A stretch of DNA of 32,107 nucleotides from NCBI GenBank assembly GCA_003130875.1, contig QEXY01000169.1, positions 1 to 32,107 of the forward strand, in the 5' to 3' direction. Of the stretch, positions 23,952 to 31,584 are shown in pieces. This stretch comes from Ardenticatenia bacterium (GTDB lineage Bacteria > Chloroflexota > Anaerolineae > 4572-78 > NAK82). The stretch's first letter is position 1. Each line of letters begins with the position of its first letter. A program made the position numbers and the translations under genes. Below the pieces are notes generated by a model. That model made no database searches and was not told the origin of the DNA. It saw nothing but the letters and a program-made list of their open reading frames with translations.

Positions 23952-24082
23952 TCACTTTCAAGGGCAGGGCTTTGACCTGAGATGGTTTGGATGCGAAGAC
24001 CGCACCTGAAAGCAGCTTGGGAAGTGTCTATGTTGGCGCGGATCCCTGCGGATTCCGAAAGAGGGTACAGGACAATATTTCC

Positions 24083-24856
24083 TCACAGCCGTTCCAGCCC
24101 ATGCGCTTCCAGCAGCTCTGTCTGTTCCAGCAGCTCGGCCGTCGGGCCATCGGCCACGATCCGCCCTTCATCCATAATAACCATGCGCGGGAACAGCTCG
24201 CGCACCATAAGCATGTCATGGGTAGAAGCCAGCATGGTGATCGGGAGGGTGCGCAACAGGTTGATCAACCCACGGCGTGCGCGAGGGTCGAGACCGGCGC
24301 TGGGCTCGTCCAGGACAAGGATGTCCGGATGCATTGAAAGCACCGTGGCGATGGCGACGCGTTTCTTCTCTCCCATGCTCAGATGATACGACAATCGGTC
24401 AGCATAGTGCGCCATCCCCACCTGGGTCAGTGCCTGCACCACGCGTCGCCGCACTTCCTCTTCGGGCAGCCCCATATGCAGCGGGCCGAAGGCGACATCT
24501 TCATACACGGTGGGAGAGAAGAGTTGGTCATCCGGGTTCTGAAACACCAGGCCCACCCGCGCGCGGATAAATGGCAGGTTGGGCGTCGTCACCGGCATGC
24601 CCATCACCCGGACACTCCCCTGTCCGCCGTTGAGCAGGCCGTTCAGATGCAGCAGCAAGGTGCTCTTGCCGGCGCCGTTAGGCCCCACCAGCGCCACCTT
24701 CTCGCCACAGTGCACCTGCAATGAAACGCCGCGCAACGCCACATGGCCATCTGGGTAAGCGAAATGCAAATCCTCCACTTCCAGCGCCAGTGTATCCGGC
24801 GCAGGACGGCCCCAGCCATCTACACACCGCGCAACCGGTTCATGGACAATCGGCAT
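24083..24856 (-). CDS. cbiO: Cobalt/nickel ECF transporter ATPase CbiO
   Basis: The 257-residue ATPase has Walker A GPNGAGKST (58-66), Q-loop VFQNPDDQLFSPTVYEDVAFGP (the ECF-typical segment), signature LSMGEKKRVAIA and Walker B ILVLDEPSAGLDP. The QNPDDQLF form is typical of energy-coupling-factor ATPases. It is the third gene of the metal-uptake operon, 14 nt after cbiQ, and should work as a homodimer since no second ATPase is present. The first about 24 residues precede the usual ECF start (LEVEDLHFAYPDG), and the SD at ATG 24856 is weak, so the real start could differ. Confidence 0.92.
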   Translation of the reverse strand: MPIVHEPVARCVDGWGRPAPDTLALEVEDLHFAYPDGHVALRGVSLQVHCGEKVALVGPNGAGKSTLLLHLNGLLNGGQGSVRVMGMPVTTPNLPFIRARVGLVFQNPDDQLFSPTVYEDVAFGPLHMGLPEEEVRRRVVQALTQVGMAHYADRLSYHLSMGEKKRVAIATVLSMHPDILVLDEPSAGLDPRARRGLINLLRTLPITMLASTHDMLMVRELFPRMVIMDEGRIVADGPTAELLEQTELLEAHGLERL

Positions 24857-24870
24857 AGGAAATCATCCGT

Positions 24871-25671
24871 CTAGCTCAGCGTACGACCGAGCCATTGTAT
24901 CATGGTAAGCGCGGCGAATGCCAACCCGAGCGCCATCCAGTCCCGCCGGCGCATCCGATGCGGGTTAATGGTGACATACTGGCCACGGAATCCGCGCGCC
25001 ACCATGGCGTTATAGATGCGGTCGCTGCGTTCCAGACTGCGCAGGAAGAGCTGACCGGTCATGTTGCCAGCCACGCGTGCGCGCCAGAGCAGGGAACCAC
25101 CCGCCTTGCCTTGTGCGGAAGCAGCACTGCGCGCCTGGCGGGCACGCAACAGCCGCGTGACCTCGTCCAACAATACAGCCAAATAACGCACCATAAACGC
25201 AAGGATGGTCACCAGCAAGGCAGGCACATGCAGGTGGCGCAGCGCGTGCAGCAGATCCGGAATGCGCGTAGTGGCGACCAGCAAGATAGCCATCTGTACC
25301 GAGAGCCAGCTGCGCACCAGAACGCTACTGAAACGCACCAGGCCAGCGTCGCTTGCGCTGATCTCCCAGGCGCCCAGCTGCAGGGTGAAAAGCGTCCGGC
25401 CGGGCAGGGTAAAGACCAACGTGATCGCCACCAACGCAAAGGGAAGCGCCACGAGCGAGCGACGTAACACCAAACCAACCCCCAGCCGCGCGACAAGCGC
25501 AACAGCCAGCACCGCACACCAGACCAGGAAATAAGCCCCCCAGGCGCCATCTGGCAGCAACAGAACGGAGAAGATGCCCAGCAACGTGACCACGACCTTG
25601 ACCCGCGGGTCAAGGTCGTGGATGGAACTCGGTCGATCGTGATAACGATCCAGTGCGTTATGGAGCATCAT
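24871..25671 (-). CDS. cbiQ: Cobalt/nickel ECF transporter T component CbiQ
   Basis: This 266-residue membrane protein has about six hydrophobic segments and the two coupling-helix motifs of EcfT/CbiQ proteins: ARQAR (around residue 175) and ARGFRG (around residue 232). It begins DRY..RPSSIHDLDPRVKVVVTLLG, the family's conserved entry with Asp-Pro-Arg. It links the ATPase dimer to the CbiM substrate-binding subunit. Adjacent Met codons at 25671 and 25668 are equally possible starts and no good SD is visible; translation may depend on cbiM, whose stop is 42 nt upstream. Confidence 0.92.
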   Translation of the reverse strand: MMLHNALDRYHDRPSSIHDLDPRVKVVVTLLGIFSVLLLPDGAWGAYFLVWCAVLAVALVARLGVGLVLRRSLVALPFALVAITLVFTLPGRTLFTLQLGAWEISASDAGLVRFSSVLVRSWLSVQMAILLVATTRIPDLLHALRHLHVPALLVTILAFMVRYLAVLLDEVTRLLRARQARSAASAQGKAGGSLLWRARVAGNMTGQLFLRSLERSDRIYNAMVARGFRGQYVTINPHRMRRRDWMALGLAFAALTMIQWLGRTLS

Positions 25672-25713
25672 GCACTGTCGGAGGTTCTTTCATACCACCC
25701 AACTCACAGCCTA

Positions 25714-26688
25714 TCAAGCGGCAGCCGCCCGTTGACGCAACAGACGTCCTACCGCGAAGGCCACCAGCGCCACCACCAATGCCCCGATCACACCCGCTAG
25801 GATGGTCGAGAGAGGAGTCTCGCCCAGGAAGGGGATCACATAGTCGGGGAACAGCTCATAAGGCGGCGTCATAGCGACCTCCTCGAACCCCATATCGATG
25901 GCGACGCGCTCCAGACCGTCTGGGTCAGCGGAAGCGATAGGGGATAGAACGGCGACGAATAAAGCGATCACCAAGCCCACGATCACCCAGCCGCGGCCGC
26001 CACCGGTGCGCACGGCCTCGGCCGCCACCAGGTCAGGGCGCACCTGCATCACAAATGCCAGCGCCGCCATGGTGATCAGACCTTCGCCGATACCGATCAA
26101 CATATGCACCCCCAGCATTGCCGGCACTACAATGGCGAACGGCGAGGTGCCGCTGAACCCCAGCTGCAAGGCGGTGAACAATGCACCGGCTACGACCGAT
26201 AGCCAGGCCAGCACGCCGGCCACGACCAAGCGCACCCCCTTGCTTTGGCGCGCGGCCAAACCATGATAGAGGCTGCCCAGCGCGGCGGTCACCAATCCCA
26301 TATTGAAGATGTTGGCGCCCATGACCAGCAATCCGCCATCCTGGAAGAGCAGGCCTTGCACGATGATTACACACGCCATCACCAGCATGCCAGCCCAAGG
26401 CCCCAGCATCACCGCCGCCAGCACGCCACCCAACAGATGTCCCGAAGTACCGCCCGCGATCGGAAAATTGATCATCTGGGCGGCGAAGATGAAAGCGGCC
26501 ATCACCCCCATCAACGGGATCTGACGTTCACCCAGCTGCTGTTGCGTCTTGCGGATAGCGAGCAGCAGCAACGCCACCGTGATCACCCAAAAGATCAGCG
26601 CCACCGGCATGCTCAGAAACCCATCGGGGATGTGCATACGAGGAACTACGACCTCTTCCCAGAGACGTGTGAGCAATGCAATGTTCAT
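25714..26688 (-). CDS. cbiM: Cobalt/nickel ECF substrate-binding protein CbiM with fused PDGLE (CbiN/NikN-like) domain
   Basis: The S component begins its conserved region with MHIPDGFLS (Met18-His19 in this reading). In NikM/CbiM structures the mature N-terminal Met-His coordinates the metal, together with a His near residue 67 and others. Membrane segments with FIFAAQMINFPIAGGTSGHLLGG follow. The C-terminal part, SADPDGLERVA, then an extracytoplasmic loop and a last helix (residues about 295-317), is the PDGLE domain that in other operons is the separate small subunit. The ATG at 26688 has AGGAG 7 nt upstream but adds 17 residues before MHIPDG; the ATG at 26637 gives the canonical N-terminus but a poor SD. 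Whether the ion is cobalt or nickel cannot be decided from the sequence. Confidence 0.9.
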   Translation of the reverse strand: MNIALLTRLWEEVVVPRMHIPDGFLSMPVALIFWVITVALLLLAIRKTQQQLGERQIPLMGVMAAFIFAAQMINFPIAGGTSGHLLGGVLAAVMLGPWAGMLVMACVIIVQGLLFQDGGLLVMGANIFNMGLVTAALGSLYHGLAARQSKGVRLVVAGVLAWLSVVAGALFTALQLGFSGTSPFAIVVPAMLGVHMLIGIGEGLITMAALAFVMQVRPDLVAAEAVRTGGGRGWVIVGLVIALFVAVLSPIASADPDGLERVAIDMGFEEVAMTPPYELFPDYVIPFLGETPLSTILAGVIGALVVALVAFAVGRLLRQRAAAA

Positions 26689-26719
26689 AGCAATTCTCCT
26701 TTCCGTCGCTTACCGGATA

Positions 26720-26745
26720 CCTTATTGCAATCAATTGCAATAAGG
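26720..26745. promoter_or_regulatory. Operator palindrome of the cbiMQO operon
   Basis: CCTTATTGCAAT at 26720-26731 is followed after 2 nt by its exact complement at 26734-26745, a perfect 12-bp-arm inverted repeat. It abuts the -10 box of the cbiM promoter and contains the predicted transcript start, so a bound protein would block transcription. Within it TTGCAA occurs twice with 4 nt between. This resembles, but does not equal, the TTGCAA-N5-TTGCAA box of the nickel-responsive Fur-family regulator Nur. No regulator gene is nearby. Confidence 0.75.
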
Positions 26746-26774
26746 AGTATATCACACCTTGGACAAAACGTCAA
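26746..26774 (-). promoter_or_regulatory. Promoter of cbiMQO
   Basis: On the minus strand TTGACG (26774-26769) and TATACT (26751-26746) are 17 bp apart. The start near 26739 falls in the palindrome, leaving about 50 nt before the ATG at 26688. No cobalamin riboswitch is visible in this leader. Confidence 0.75.
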
Positions 26775-26798
26775 AAACCTTAAGCCTCTTTCACCTCC

Positions 26799-26826
26799 TT
26801 GACACCTTATCAAGCACCGTTATAAT
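26799..26826 (+). promoter_or_regulatory. Consensus promoter of the acetyltransferase gene
   Basis: TTGACA (26799-26804) and TATAAT (26821-26826) are both perfect, 16 bp apart. The transcript should start at about 26833, on or next to the ATG at 26834, so the message is probably leaderless. Confidence 0.8.
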
Positions 26827-26833
26827 GTGCTCA

Positions 26834-27748
26834 ATGTCTCGAACCGTTCTGCCTGGTGTGCGCGTGCCATATGGCATACGTCCGGCCATTGCATCGGACC
26901 GCGGTGCGATCCAATATCTGCTCAATCACTCCTGGCGCGTTTACCTGCCGGCTGGCTTCCAATGGTTGGAGCAACGCCTCACCGCCGGGGATTGTTGGGT
27001 GATGGTCGAAGGCAGGCGCGAGGTCGCCGGCGTCGTCGCGGTGCTCAGGCGCCATCCGGAGGTAGTCAGCATCGTAGGTGCAGCTGTGCGCAACGGCATG
27101 CCTGTTGCACTCTATGTCGAGATGACACTGGCAACCCTAGAGCTTTATGGACGCCGGCAACGTGCGTGTGGCTTGACTTGTCTGGGCAGCGCCTCATGGC
27201 TGAGCGAGACGCTCTCCGCCCAGGGTTTTCGAGCTTGTGAGCACGTCATCACGTATGGCTGGCAAGCCCGGCCCATTTCCGTCACCGGCAATACCACGGT
27301 TACGGTGGAGCCTGTCCGCTATCACGAGCTTGAAGCCGTCGCTGCCATCGACCGGCAGATCTTTGCACCAGTGTGGCACAAACCCTATGATGAACTGGAA
27401 TTTGCCCTGGGCAGGGCCGATTACTTCGTCGTGGCGAAACATGAACAACGCATTGTGGGATACTGTTGGAGCGAATGGAGCGAGACGCGCGGCCATCTCA
27501 CCCGTCTGGGGGTCGTAGAGGATTGGCAGGGCAAAGGCGTGGGTACACGATTGCTCACCGAGGCGCTGAATGCTATGGTACAGTTCGGCATCACCTGGGT
27601 CACCCTCAACACGCAGGTGAGCAATTGGCCAGCACGCCGCCTGTACGAACGCCACGGGTTTCGCAACCTCGGACAGGCGGTGCCGCTCTTATGGAAAGAT
27701 TTGAGGGCCACCTCCCCCAACCCCGACGCCTCTGTCTCCTTGGGATGA
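26834..27748 (+). CDS. Double-GNAT-domain N-acetyltransferase
   Basis: The 304-residue product has an N-terminal GNAT-like half (GIRPAIASDRGAIQYLL...VEGRREVAGVVAVLR) with a degenerate acetyl-CoA loop. The complete C-terminal GNAT domain (about residues 155-290) has DYFVVAKHEQRIVGYCW, LTRLGVVEDWQGKGVGTRLLTEAL (the Q-G-K-G-V-G pyrophosphate loop) and NWPARRLYERHGFRNLG. The acceptor is unknown; RimI-like protein acetylation is only one option. The ATG at 26834 coincides with the predicted transcription start and no SD precedes it; ATG 26825 lies inside the -10 box and cannot be used from this promoter. It diverges from cbiMQO and is followed 48 nt later by malic enzyme. Confidence 0.82.
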   Translation: MSRTVLPGVRVPYGIRPAIASDRGAIQYLLNHSWRVYLPAGFQWLEQRLTAGDCWVMVEGRREVAGVVAVLRRHPEVVSIVGAAVRNGMPVALYVEMTLATLELYGRRQRACGLTCLGSASWLSETLSAQGFRACEHVITYGWQARPISVTGNTTVTVEPVRYHELEAVAAIDRQIFAPVWHKPYDELEFALGRADYFVVAKHEQRIVGYCWSEWSETRGHLTRLGVVEDWQGKGVGTRLLTEALNAMVQFGITWVTLNTQVSNWPARRLYERHGFRNLGQAVPLLWKDLRATSPNPDASVSLG

Positions 27749-27796
27749 CGTGGCCCACCCGCATGCTTTGCTCAGGAGATTGGGAGAACGCAAGAT

Positions 27797-29107
27797 ATGG
27801 CCCTGATCACCCGTGATGCGGCGCTGGATTACCACGCCCGAGGAAGGCCGGGCAAGCTGGAGGTCGTCCCCACCAAGCCGGTGGTGACCCAAATCGACCT
27901 CTCCTTGGCATACACCCCCGGGGTGGCGGTGCCGGTTTTGGAGATCGAGGCGCACCCTGAGGCAGCGTATCGCTATACCGCCAAAAGCAACCTGGTGGCG
28001 GTGGTCTCCGATGGGAGTGCGATTCTCGGATTGGGCAACCGCGGCGCCCTGGCATCCAAACCTGTCATGGAAGGCAAGGCGGTGCTGTTCAAACGCTTTG
28101 CCGACGTGGATGCGTTCGATATCGAGGTCAACGCCACCAGCCCGGAAGAATTCATCTGCGTGATGCAGGCCATCGCCCCGACCTTCGGCGGCATCAACCT
28201 GGAGGACATCAAGGCACCGGAGTGTTTTGAGATTGAGGAAACGCTCAAAGGCAGCCTGGACATCCCCGTCTTTCACGACGATCAGCACGGCACAGCGATC
28301 ATCGCCACTGCTGGTCTGCTGAATGCGCTGGAGCTCGTGGGAAAGCACAAGGAAGAGGTGACCATCGTTATCAACGGCGCCGGCGCCGCCGCGATCGCCT
28401 GCGCCAAGATGTTCGTCTTGGCCGGCTTTCCGCGCGAACACATCACCATGCTGGACACGCACGGGGTCATCTACGCCGGACGTCGCGAGGGGATGAACGT
28501 GCACAAGGCGCAATTCGCCCGAGCGACGCAGGCGCGCACGCTGGCCGAGGCCTTGCGCGGTGCCGATGTGTTCGTCGGCCTGTCGGTGGGCAATGTGGTC
28601 AGCGCGGAGATGGTGCGCTCTATGGCAAGGCGGCCGATCATTTTCGCTATGGCCAACCCTGATCCGGAAATCCCTTACGAACTGGCCAAGCAGGTCTGTC
28701 CCGACGCCATCATTGCCACTGGCCGCAGCGATTACCCGAACCAGGTCAACAATGTGTTGGGTTTTCCGTTCATCTTTCGCGGCGCCCTGGACGTGCATGC
28801 CCGACAGATCAACGAGGAAATGAAGCTGGCAGCCTGCTACGCGCTGGCTGCATTGGCACGCGAACCAGTGCCGGAAGAGGTGTTGCGCGCCTATCAGCTC
28901 ACATCGCTGCAGTTCGGCGCTGATTATATTATTCCCAAGCCGCTCGACCCGCGCGTATTGCTGTGGGAGGCGCCGGCGGTGGCTGAGGCGGCGATGAAAA
29001 CTGGAGTGGCGCGTCAACCCGTCGACCTGGACATCTATCGCGCCCAGCTGGAAAAGCGCCAGGCGCGATTGACGCGTCTCCTGGAAGTGGCTGGCTCGAT
29101 CGCATAG
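27797..29107 (+). CDS. Malic enzyme (malate dehydrogenase, oxaloacetate-decarboxylating)
   Basis: It oxidatively decarboxylates malate to pyruvate and CO2. The 436-residue protein has the malic-enzyme N-terminal domain with YTPGVA (Tyr40), [21 protein letters not shown] (Lys95), [12 protein letters not shown] and HDDQHGTA, the catalytic and metal-binding set. The NAD(P) domain has [10 protein letters not shown], an Asp at the end of the second strand (ITMLD220, favouring NAD as inference), then [10 protein letters not shown] and [26 protein letters not shown]. It is the short form without the phosphotransacetylase-like C-terminal domain of MaeB. GGGAG lies upstream of the ATG. A run-through transcript from the acetyltransferase promoter is possible. 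With PPDK and citrate synthase in the same window it handles the pyruvate/malate/oxaloacetate node. Confidence 0.95.
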
Positions 29108-29249
29108 AGGCCGGACACGCCGAAGCGGCTGAATGGACGGAAGGGATTCATCACACGGCAAGGAACCCTGTAGAAACCTGTAGGGTGGTTGTGGTGGGGC
29201 AGCACGATGCGAATTTCGTCGCGCGCACCGCAAATTGGCGCGATGGCAG

Positions 29250-29278
29250 ATGTGTGCATATTGCATATTGACACACAT
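29250..29278. promoter_or_regulatory. Inverted repeat with internal direct repeat upstream of citrate synthase
   Basis: ATGTGTG (29250-29256) is complementary to CACACAT (29272-29278). Between the arms CATATTG occurs twice in tandem (29257-29263 and 29264-29270). A consensus-like TTGACA at 29268-29273 overlaps it, with only a poor -10 (CATGAC, 29291-29296) at 17 bp. It may be a protein-binding site at the citrate synthase promoter. The rest of the 29108-29334 gap shows no coding. Confidence 0.4.
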
Positions 29279-29334
29279 TATGCTCCGATCCATGACGTAA
29301 CCGCGGTACCGACGTATGTAGGAGATGAAAGAGG

Positions 29335-30486
29335 ATGGTAGTCGAAACACAAGTGCAGGTTCACGCAGGTTTAGAAGGGATCGTCGTGGCTCGCACGCGG
29401 ATGAGCAAAGTGATCGGCGAGGAAGGGCGGCTGATCTATGCCGGATATGATATCCACGACCTGGCTGAACATGCCTCGTTTGAGGAAGTGGCCTATATGT
29501 TCTGGTATTGTTGCCTGCCCAATCGCCGCCAGCTGCTCAGCTTCGAGGACAGCTTGCGCAGCCGGCGCAATATCCCCTTCCATGTGATGGATTTGATCCG
29601 CTCGGCACCCACAGTACAATCGCACCCCATGTCCGTACTGCGCACAGCGGTCTCGGCATTGGCACTGGGCGATCCCGGCTCCAACGATATCTCGCAGGCG
29701 AGCAATCTGCGTCGCGCGGCGGACATCACGGCCAAGATCCCCACCATCGTGGCAGCGCACGACCGCAATCGCAAAGGTCTGGAAGTGATCGGCCCGCGCG
29801 AGGACCTCGACCATGCATCCAACTTCCTGTACATGCTCCACGGCCAGATGCCCTCCGAAGTGGAGAGTCGCGCGCTCAACCTATACCTGGTGCTCTTGGC
29901 CGACCACGAGTTCAACGCCTCGACCTTTTCGGCACGCGTCACCGCCAGCACCCAGTCCGACATCTTTTCGGCCATCACCAGCGCATTGGGCACCCTGAAA
30001 GGGCCGGCCCACGGCGGCGCCGCTGAGCAAACGATGCTGCAGATCCTTGAGATCGGCGACCCGGATAACGTCGAGGCATGGTATCGCGCAGCGCGTGCCC
30101 AGGGCAAACGTATCTATGGGATGGGCCATCGCGTGTATAAAACCCAAGACCCGCGCGCGGTGCATTTGCAACGCGCTACCGCGCAACTGGCTGAACTGGG
30201 CGACCCGCGATGGTATCAGATCGCGCTCAAGCTGGAGCAGGTGGCACGCGAAGATCCCTACATGATCGAGCGCAAGATTTACTGCAATGTGGACTTCTAC
30301 TCTGCACCCCTGCTCTACTACCTGGGCATCGATCCCGATCTATTCACCTGCATCTTCGCGATGGCGCGCGTCGTGGGCTGGATCGGCCATCTGCTGGAGC
30401 AATATTCGGACAACCGCCTGATTCGGCCGCGTTCGGAGTACATCGGGCCGGAAGATCTGCGCTGGGTGCCAATCGAGGAGCGCTGA
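29335..30486 (+). CDS. gltA: Citrate synthase
   Basis: It condenses oxaloacetate and acetyl-CoA to citrate in the cytoplasm. The 383-residue protein is of the short, Gram-positive/thermophile type. Active-site residues are visible: His191 (LADHEFNASTF), His226 (KGPAHGGAAE), His265 (GMGHRVYKTQDPRA), Asp320 (YCNVDFYSAPL) and Arg361/364 near the end. The loop after VDF and the length fit citrate and 2-methylcitrate synthases about equally; no prpB/prpD neighbours are present, so citrate synthase is preferred. The ATG at 29335 is preceded by TAGGAG about 11 nt away. Malic enzyme lies upstream on the same strand, with a 227-bp gap suggesting an own promoter. Downstream, a short CACCC/GGGTG hairpin near 30489-30507 lacks a U-run. 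Confidence 0.93.
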   Translation: MVVETQVQVHAGLEGIVVARTRMSKVIGEEGRLIYAGYDIHDLAEHASFEEVAYMFWYCCLPNRRQLLSFEDSLRSRRNIPFHVMDLIRSAPTVQSHPMSVLRTAVSALALGDPGSNDISQASNLRRAADITAKIPTIVAAHDRNRKGLEVIGPREDLDHASNFLYMLHGQMPSEVESRALNLYLVLLADHEFNASTFSARVTASTQSDIFSAITSALGTLKGPAHGGAAEQTMLQILEIGDPDNVEAWYRAARAQGKRIYGMGHRVYKTQDPRAVHLQRATAQLAELGDPRWYQIALKLEQVAREDPYMIERKIYCNVDFYSAPLLYYLGIDPDLFTCIFAMARVVGWIGHLLEQYSDNRLIRPRSEYIGPEDLRWVPIEER

Positions 30487-30676: not shown

Positions 30677-31495
30677 TCAACCCAGCGCCACATCCAGGAT
30701 CATCATGATCGTAAAGCCCATCATGGTGCCGAAGGTGGCAATATGGGTGCTCTGTTCGAGCTGCGATTCGGGGATCAGCTCCTCGATCACGACGTAGATC
30801 ATCGCTCCGGCGGCAAAGGCCAGCGCATAAGGCAGGAGAGGGCGCGCCAGCACCACCGCCGCGGCCCCCACCACGCCGGCTATGGGTTCCACCACCGCGG
30901 ATAGCTGGCCGAACCAGAAGCTCTTCAAGCGGCTCATCCCCTCACGCCGCAGCGGCGCCGCCACCGCAGTGCCCTCGGGCAGGTTCTGCAGCCCAATGCC
31001 GAGCGCCAACGCCGCTGCCCCCGCCAGCGAAGCGCCGGGGATGTCATTCGCCACCGCACCGAAAGCAACCCCGACAGCCAGTCCCTCTGGAATGTTATGT
31101 AATGTAATCGCCAGCACCAACAGAATACTGCGTTGCCAGCTCGTCTTGATGCCTTCCGCCTCGCTGAGCGGAAAACCCAGATGCAGGTGTGGCAACACAC
31201 GATCGACCAGCCACAGGAAACCGCCGCCCAACAGGAAACCGGATGCCACCGGCAGCCAGGTCGGCAGAGAGCCTTCCTCCTCCGCCAGTTCGATCGCCGG
31301 CGCCAGCAGCGACCAGTAGCTGGCCGCGACCATCACCCCCGCTGCGAAGCCCAACATGCCGTTGAGCAGCTGTTTGTTCACATCTTTGAAAAAGAAGACC
31401 GCCCCCGCGCCGACTGCGGTCAAAAACCAGGTGAAACAGGTGGCCAGCAACGCTTGCAGGACAGGCCCCAATGCTTCAAACCAAGCCATGATCAT
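30677..31495 (-). CDS. ZIP-family metal transporter, GufA-like
   Basis: The 272-residue protein has about eight membrane helices. The two metal-binding helices carry [17 protein letters not shown] (HNxPEG) and [14 protein letters not shown] (QNxPEG), the ZIP signature in its GufA-type variant. A His-rich cytoplasmic loop ([10 protein letters not shown]) lies between helices 3 and 4. It moves Zn2+ or other divalent ions into the cytoplasm. The open frame reaches 31576, but that start lies upstream of the predicted promoter; ATG 31495 follows AGGGAAGGGG and begins the membrane domain. The gene converges on citrate synthase; no operon partners. Confidence 0.9.
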
Positions 31496-31540
31496 CGCCC
31501 CTTCCCTCCCTACGATGTGTCCCAGCCTGGATGATATGCA

Positions 31541-31569
31541 ACAATACCAGAGACCCATAGGGTTGGCAA
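31541..31569 (-). promoter_or_regulatory. Promoter of the ZIP transporter gene
   Basis: On the minus strand TTGCCA (31569-31564) and TATTGT (31546-31541) lie 17 bp apart. The start near 31534 gives a leader of about 39 nt before ATG 31495, which supports the shorter protein. Confidence 0.5.
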
Positions 31570-31584
31570 GCACCACGTGTGTGG

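Follow-up and report, generated by a model that had tools for sequence, protein, structure and literature searches.

The importer operon and its promoter palindrome

The window, that is, the whole stretch of 32,107 nt analysed (contig QEXY01000169.1 of an Ardenticatenia bacterium), carried on its minus strand a cbiM-cbiQ-cbiO operon, preceded by a Shine-Dalgarno sequence, a palindrome and a promoter (Table 1). In the following, G000 denotes the window genome, G005 and G006 its two congeners, and G001 a genome of the sister genus.

Table 1. Features of the cbiM region and its surroundings in the window
Feature	Position	Strand	Description
cbiO	24083..24856	-	ATPase
cbiQ	24871..25671	-	T component
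Palindrome inside cbiQ	25590..25621		32 bp, 16-nt arms, no gap
cbiM/nikMN	25714..26688	-	ECF transporter substrate component; CbiM domain fused to PDGLE (N) domain
N-terminal extension of cbiM	26688..26637	-	17 residues, translated
Shine-Dalgarno AAGGAG	26696..26701	-	7 nt 5' of cbiM/nikMN ATG
Predicted operator	26720..26745	.	12-2-12 palindrome; conserved core TATTGCAA-N4-TTGCAATA at 26723-26742
-10 hexamer TATACT, TG preceding	26746..26751	-	promoter prediction; same geometry in G005 and G006
-35 hexamer TTGACG, spacer 17 nt	26769..26774	-	promoter prediction
Promoter TTGACA-16-TATAAT	26799..26835	+	consensus-perfect; ends 8 nt 5' of an ATG of the divergent GNAT gene
ZupT/ZIP-like metal transporter	30677..31576	-	about 4 kb from the cbiM promoter; without the box

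The sequence CCTTATTGCAAT-CA-ATTGCAATAAGG formed a perfect 12-2-12 palindrome with exactly complementary arms (26720-26731 and 26734-26745), in agreement with the initial annotation, which had described a perfect 26-bp palindrome of two exact 12-nt arms and a 2-nt centre. Mononucleotide shuffles of the window gave an expectation of 0.05 perfect 12-nt inverted repeats with a gap of 0 to 6 nt. TTGACG-17-TATACT was the sole minus-strand promoter-like site within 26600-26900 and ended at 26746; since the palindrome begins at the first base past the -10 hexamer, it covers the predicted +1, and the earlier placement of the palindrome next to the -10 of a good promoter and over the transcription start was borne out. 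The 22-mer was not matched again anywhere in the window at up to 3 mismatches (shuffles, 0), and the 26-mer had no other match in the whole window genome at the same threshold. For the 16-base core, the 12 matches in G000 at up to 3 mismatches were about as many as with the reversed control (9), the best two after cbiM (C15:15901 and C167:27577) both being intragenic. No Rfam family matched within 24000-29500, RF00174 giving no hit at E≤1, which agrees with the earlier remark that no B12 riboswitch is seen here.

The window's only other perfect 12-nt inverted repeat with a gap of 0 to 6 nt was the palindrome inside cbiQ (HDLDPRVKV codons), the 12-nt arms of which were identical in G005 and G006; coding conservation is a simple explanation. 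The promoter on the plus strand did not overlap the operator, and the transcript of the divergent GNAT gene is possibly leaderless.

Conservation of the site within the class

The sequences TTATTGCAACTAGTTGCAATAA and TTATTGCAATTAATTGCAATAA were found upstream of cbiM in G005 and G006, with the core TATTGCAA-N4-TTGCAATA exact in both, one copy per genome; they again come after a 17-nt-spaced promoter and begin within two bases of its -10. From the class, about 110 cbiM loci were gathered, 102 of them non-redundant, and the core was present at up to 3 mismatches in 69 of the 102 (shuffles, 0.7), so that the conservation upstream of cbiM on which the initial annotation had made its proposal depend was observed both in the genus and beyond it. 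The pattern TTGCAA-N4-TTGCAA occurred exactly in 33/102 loci and with at most 1 mismatch in 57/102, as against 0 and 0.9 in dinucleotide shuffles, whereas TTGCAA-N5-TTGCAA, the published Nur spacing, occurred exactly in 0/102 and with at most 1 mismatch in 1/102 cbiM loci. The conserved part was 8-N4-8, outside which pairing dropped to near the column expectation.

In 57 of the 102 loci, cbiM was preceded by a codirectional Fur-family gene; the site was present in 51 of these 57 and stood at the fur promoter in 43, an autoregulatory arrangement where fur leads the operon. A metal-regulator gene bearing the site in its own promoter, which the initial annotation had suggested looking for, is therefore at hand in the Fur family. 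In G001, with the order fur-cbiM-Q-O, TGTTGCAAAAATTTGCAGAA followed shortly after TATAAT; in four genomes of family f17, fur was located downstream near the operon end and the site preceded cbiM; and in G055, fur was unlinked and the box was carried by both the fur and the cbiM promoters. Within the DNA examined per locus, neither the site nor an upstream fur was found in 22/102 loci. A sigma70-like promoter was recognisable at 34 sites, and in 32 of them the -10 ended at -14 to +2 of the box, a peak not seen at random positions; such an arrangement is that of a repressor which blocks the promoter. Judged from these comparisons, the palindrome is an operator of a conserved binding-site type and not a chance occurrence.

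That the palindrome works instead at the RNA level, as a hairpin or terminator in the leader of cbiM, is extremely improbable. A perfect inverted repeat at this place in the leader would suit such an element, but the predicted transcript start falls inside the palindrome, pairing at the inner positions (0.24 and 0.27) was at or below the column-independent expectation (0.29 and 0.44), the core bases were invariant without covariation, and neither an Rfam match nor a terminator-like site was obtained.

When 298 genomes of this Chloroflexota class were scanned for the box at up to 1 mismatch, 57 sites were found in 55 genomes, and none with the reversed pattern as control. By our own tally, about 44 of the 57 stood immediately before fur and/or cbiM/nikM-type genes. 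Counted among these were, in relatives, sites preceding a nikL-M-Q-O operon, the NikL-like protein of which was below the NCBIfam cut-off, fur followed by a weakly matching NiCoT-like permease, and, in lineage f40 and G250 (G200, G267 and G250), fur-znuABC. In G210 the box preceded a gene found likewise after znuABC in G200 and G267 (loci L214, L235 and L236 for f40 and G210). About six sites were operators of LacI-family genes, with a centre that was mostly CG. Look-alike operators such as TTTTGCAAGCGTTTGCAATA were carried by LacI-family genes at L194, L195, L199, L215 and L230, and in scans they must be told apart from the box by their centre bases. The leftover sites were chance-like or unexplained.

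A Nur-like branch of Fur regulators

In the tree, the cbi-linked Furs, Streptomyces coelicolor Nur (ScNur), the unlinked Furs of order-mates from f3 and a Fur encoded on contig C80 of the window genome were separated from Zur, PerR and Fur with support of 97/97; in a set of 15 rows with ScNur and the window-genus Fur, support was 95/87. The initial annotation had noted that the TTGCAA pair resembles a Nur box but is off by one base, and this resemblance held: the spacing is N4 in place of the published N5, and the regulators group with ScNur. Its further suggestion of an undescribed metal regulator stood in part, since nothing on it in this lineage was found in the open-access papers searched, but its kind, the Nur-like Fur branch, is known.

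The C80 Fur (G000:C80:67130-67489; L048:9044-9553 region), which has orthologues in G005 and G006, was the window genome's only member of the Nur-like clade. Both this protein and the cbi-linked Fur of G001 scored above the cut-off of PF01475 and had 3eyy (ScNur) as the best PDB match, with Campylobacter Fur a close second for C80. The M-site and Ni-site histidines we take to be, in ScNur numbering, H33, H86, H88, H90; H70, H72, H126. Among the cbi-linked Furs (n=67), H88, H90 and H126 were present in 67/67 and H33 in 66/67, three Cys in 67/67 and the fourth in 65/67; H86 was present in 27/67 and H72 in 22/67, and at position 70 His was outside the four commonest residues. In the C80 Fur, H88 and H90 were retained and the others were replaced (H33 by L, H126 by A, H70 by C, H72 by Q and H86 by A). 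The Cys at position 70 was shared by all three species of the genus, and an extra Cys stood beside the last CxxC, making the window-genus Fur a candidate for an altered metal site.

The C80 Fur had a long tree branch and was unlinked from cbiM, and no box was found in its own promoter, which thus gave no sign of autoregulation. Besides it, the window genome encodes two Furs, a PerR-like protein and a Zur adjoining znuACB, each with a different promoter palindrome, that upstream of znuACB being TGAGACAnTTTCTCA. This leaves the C80 Fur as the candidate regulator, a choice that phylogeny also favours, and it is probably the cognate regulator of the palindrome; the pairing is only probable because H33 and H126 are lost and its own promoter lacks the box. 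The genomes are metagenome-assembled and 96% complete, so a further Fur could be missing. NikR (PF08753) was absent from seven genomes, namely the window genome and six relatives, and was found in 5 controls.

An inverted repeat of 12-2-12 is typical of ArsR/SmtB operators, and the operator could in principle be bound by a protein of that family, of the LacI type or of another family, the Fur linkage in relatives then being unrelated. The full form of the palindrome matches the ArsR/SmtB habit, look-alike boxes occur at LacI-family genes of the class, and the window genome's Fur is unlinked and divergent; however, the same 16 bases adjoin fur in 51 loci, only 8-N4-8 is conserved, with outer pairing near column expectation, the centres of the LacI look-alikes are mostly of GCGC/CGTT type and not TCAA, and the usual targets of ArsR are not uptake genes. 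Binding by another family is thus very improbable.

The metal and the proposed control of uptake

The cbiM/nikMN protein had MHIPDGFL from residue 18, a translated extension standing in front of it, and was nearest in the PDB to 4m58/4m5b (E 4e-27), with 5x3x far behind (E 7e-9). We take 4m58/4m5b to be the nickel S component NikM2, though the PDB file says CbiM. G000 has a second cbiMNQO, on C106, of the MHIMEGFL type; its genes come first in an operon for cobalamin biosynthesis, and a cobalamin riboswitch (RF00174) lies ahead of them. Three NiFe hydrogenases with intact Cys motifs were encoded by G000, and urease, as a further nickel user, was absent from it. Because of the NikM-like M protein, the NiFe hydrogenases and the separate riboswitch-controlled cobalt operon, the importer annotated as cbiM-Q-O is more likely a NikMN-Q-O importer with nickel as its substrate. 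The nikL-M-Q-O operon and the fur/NiCoT-like pair that the box precedes in relatives also speak for nickel.

Across the class, with the cbiM starts in L004-L158 compared, the canonical Met1-His2 of NikM/CbiM was mostly Leu-His (Leu codons such as CTT/CTG; 76/107 loci), and a short stretch of 6-24 residues was translated ahead of it. In NikM2, Met1 and His2 are ligands of the N-terminal metal site; if they are so here, the Leu-His starts would need processing or a different metal site.

We consider it likely that a Nur-like Fur-family repressor with a Nur-like box of N4 spacing controls this importer, the metal most likely being nickel. A metal-loaded Fur dimer of the Nur-like branch would bind TATTGCAA-N4-TTGCAATA over the -10/+1 region and block RNA polymerase, so that the ECF importer nikMN-Q-O is not transcribed; under shortage of this metal, most likely nickel, the dimer would come off and uptake would be switched on.

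The main rival to nickel, on account of the fur-znuABC cases, keeps the same Fur-family operator and mechanism but has cobalt or zinc as the metal sensed in the window genome. The importer family is often annotated as a cobalt transporter, the same box stands before fur-znuABC in G200, G267 and G250, a COG0523-like GTPase (by sequence) follows in G200, and the window-genus Fur, without H33 and H126, has a conserved Cys at position 70. TTGCA half-sites are likewise found in a Zur box of Desulfovibrio, ATGCAACNNNGTTGCAT (PMC545781). Against this, the genome's own Zur at znuACB uses another box, its own cobalt operon is under a cobalamin riboswitch, and a NikM-like S component occurs together with NiFe hydrogenases; cobalt or zinc as the metal in this genome is therefore rather unlikely. 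Some relatives have the box in front of fur-znuABC, possibly as a zinc form of this system, so that nickel is not necessarily the metal in every lineage. Tentatively, one Fur subfamily might serve different metals across Chloroflexota through a frozen, even-centred 8-N4-8 box, with nickel-type importers (nikMN, nikL-M-Q-O, NiCoT-like) as targets in most lineages and znuABC/COG0523 in others. Specificity would then evolve in the protein at a constant site, and the window-genus sensor, lacking H33/H126 and having Cys 70, would be a case of such a shift.

Nickel control by a Nur-like repressor has its closest parallel in S. coelicolor Nur (3eyy), which represses nikABCDE (PMC7055735) and has the published box tTGCaa-N5-ttGCAA (PMC3919588). 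Shared with it are the Fur family, the tree clade, the best PDB match of the cbi-linked and window-genome Furs, TTGCAA half-sites, a repressor-type promoter position and a nickel-type transport target. The Chloroflexota system differs in the N4 spacing and extended TA flanks of its box, in its target, an ECF NikMN-Q-O importer, in a regulator that is often the first gene of the controlled operon, and in the Ni-site H70, which is not conserved in the cbi-linked Furs, the window-genus Fur also lacking H33 and H126. It thus appears to be a variant of the Nur type, not a proven Nur. Zur and PerR share the fold and the possession of promoter palindromes, and the present box precedes znuABC in some relatives; however, the genome's own Zur and PerR-like protein lie across the 97/97 branch with other promoter palindromes, and the window site is not the Zur box found upstream of znuACB. 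Nik/CbiMNQO operons controlled by NikR or by cobalamin riboswitches have homologous ECF transporter genes, but the window operon has no riboswitch, that type occurring elsewhere in the genome, which itself lacks NikR. With the S components NikM2 and CbiM (4m58, 4m5b, 5x3x) the window protein shares the MHIPDGFL start motif and the GGTSGH histidine, and differs from them in the fused PDGLE domain and the 17-residue extension before MHIPDGFL.

In the open-access papers searched, neither a Nur-like regulator nor this box was found to be described for Chloroflexota, and a Clostridium thermocellum DAP-seq paper contained no matching motif. The Fur family is known; what is undescribed, as far as these open-access papers show, is the spacing of the box, the architecture of the operon and the lineage. 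NikR-independent regulation is indicated in many organisms (PMC2667541), and little has been established on how nickel/cobalt ECF importers are controlled in bacteria without NikR and riboswitch, a gap that is addressed here by a precise putative regulator-operator pair for a class of Chloroflexota that is largely uncultured. As NikR was absent where tested and the box usually stands beside a Nur-like fur, nickel uptake in Chloroflexota of this class is probably controlled in this manner. The N4 versus N5 spacing is a testable change in DNA recognition by the Fur family, and the box may help to pick out probable nickel importers among the proteins labelled as cobalt transporters in databases.
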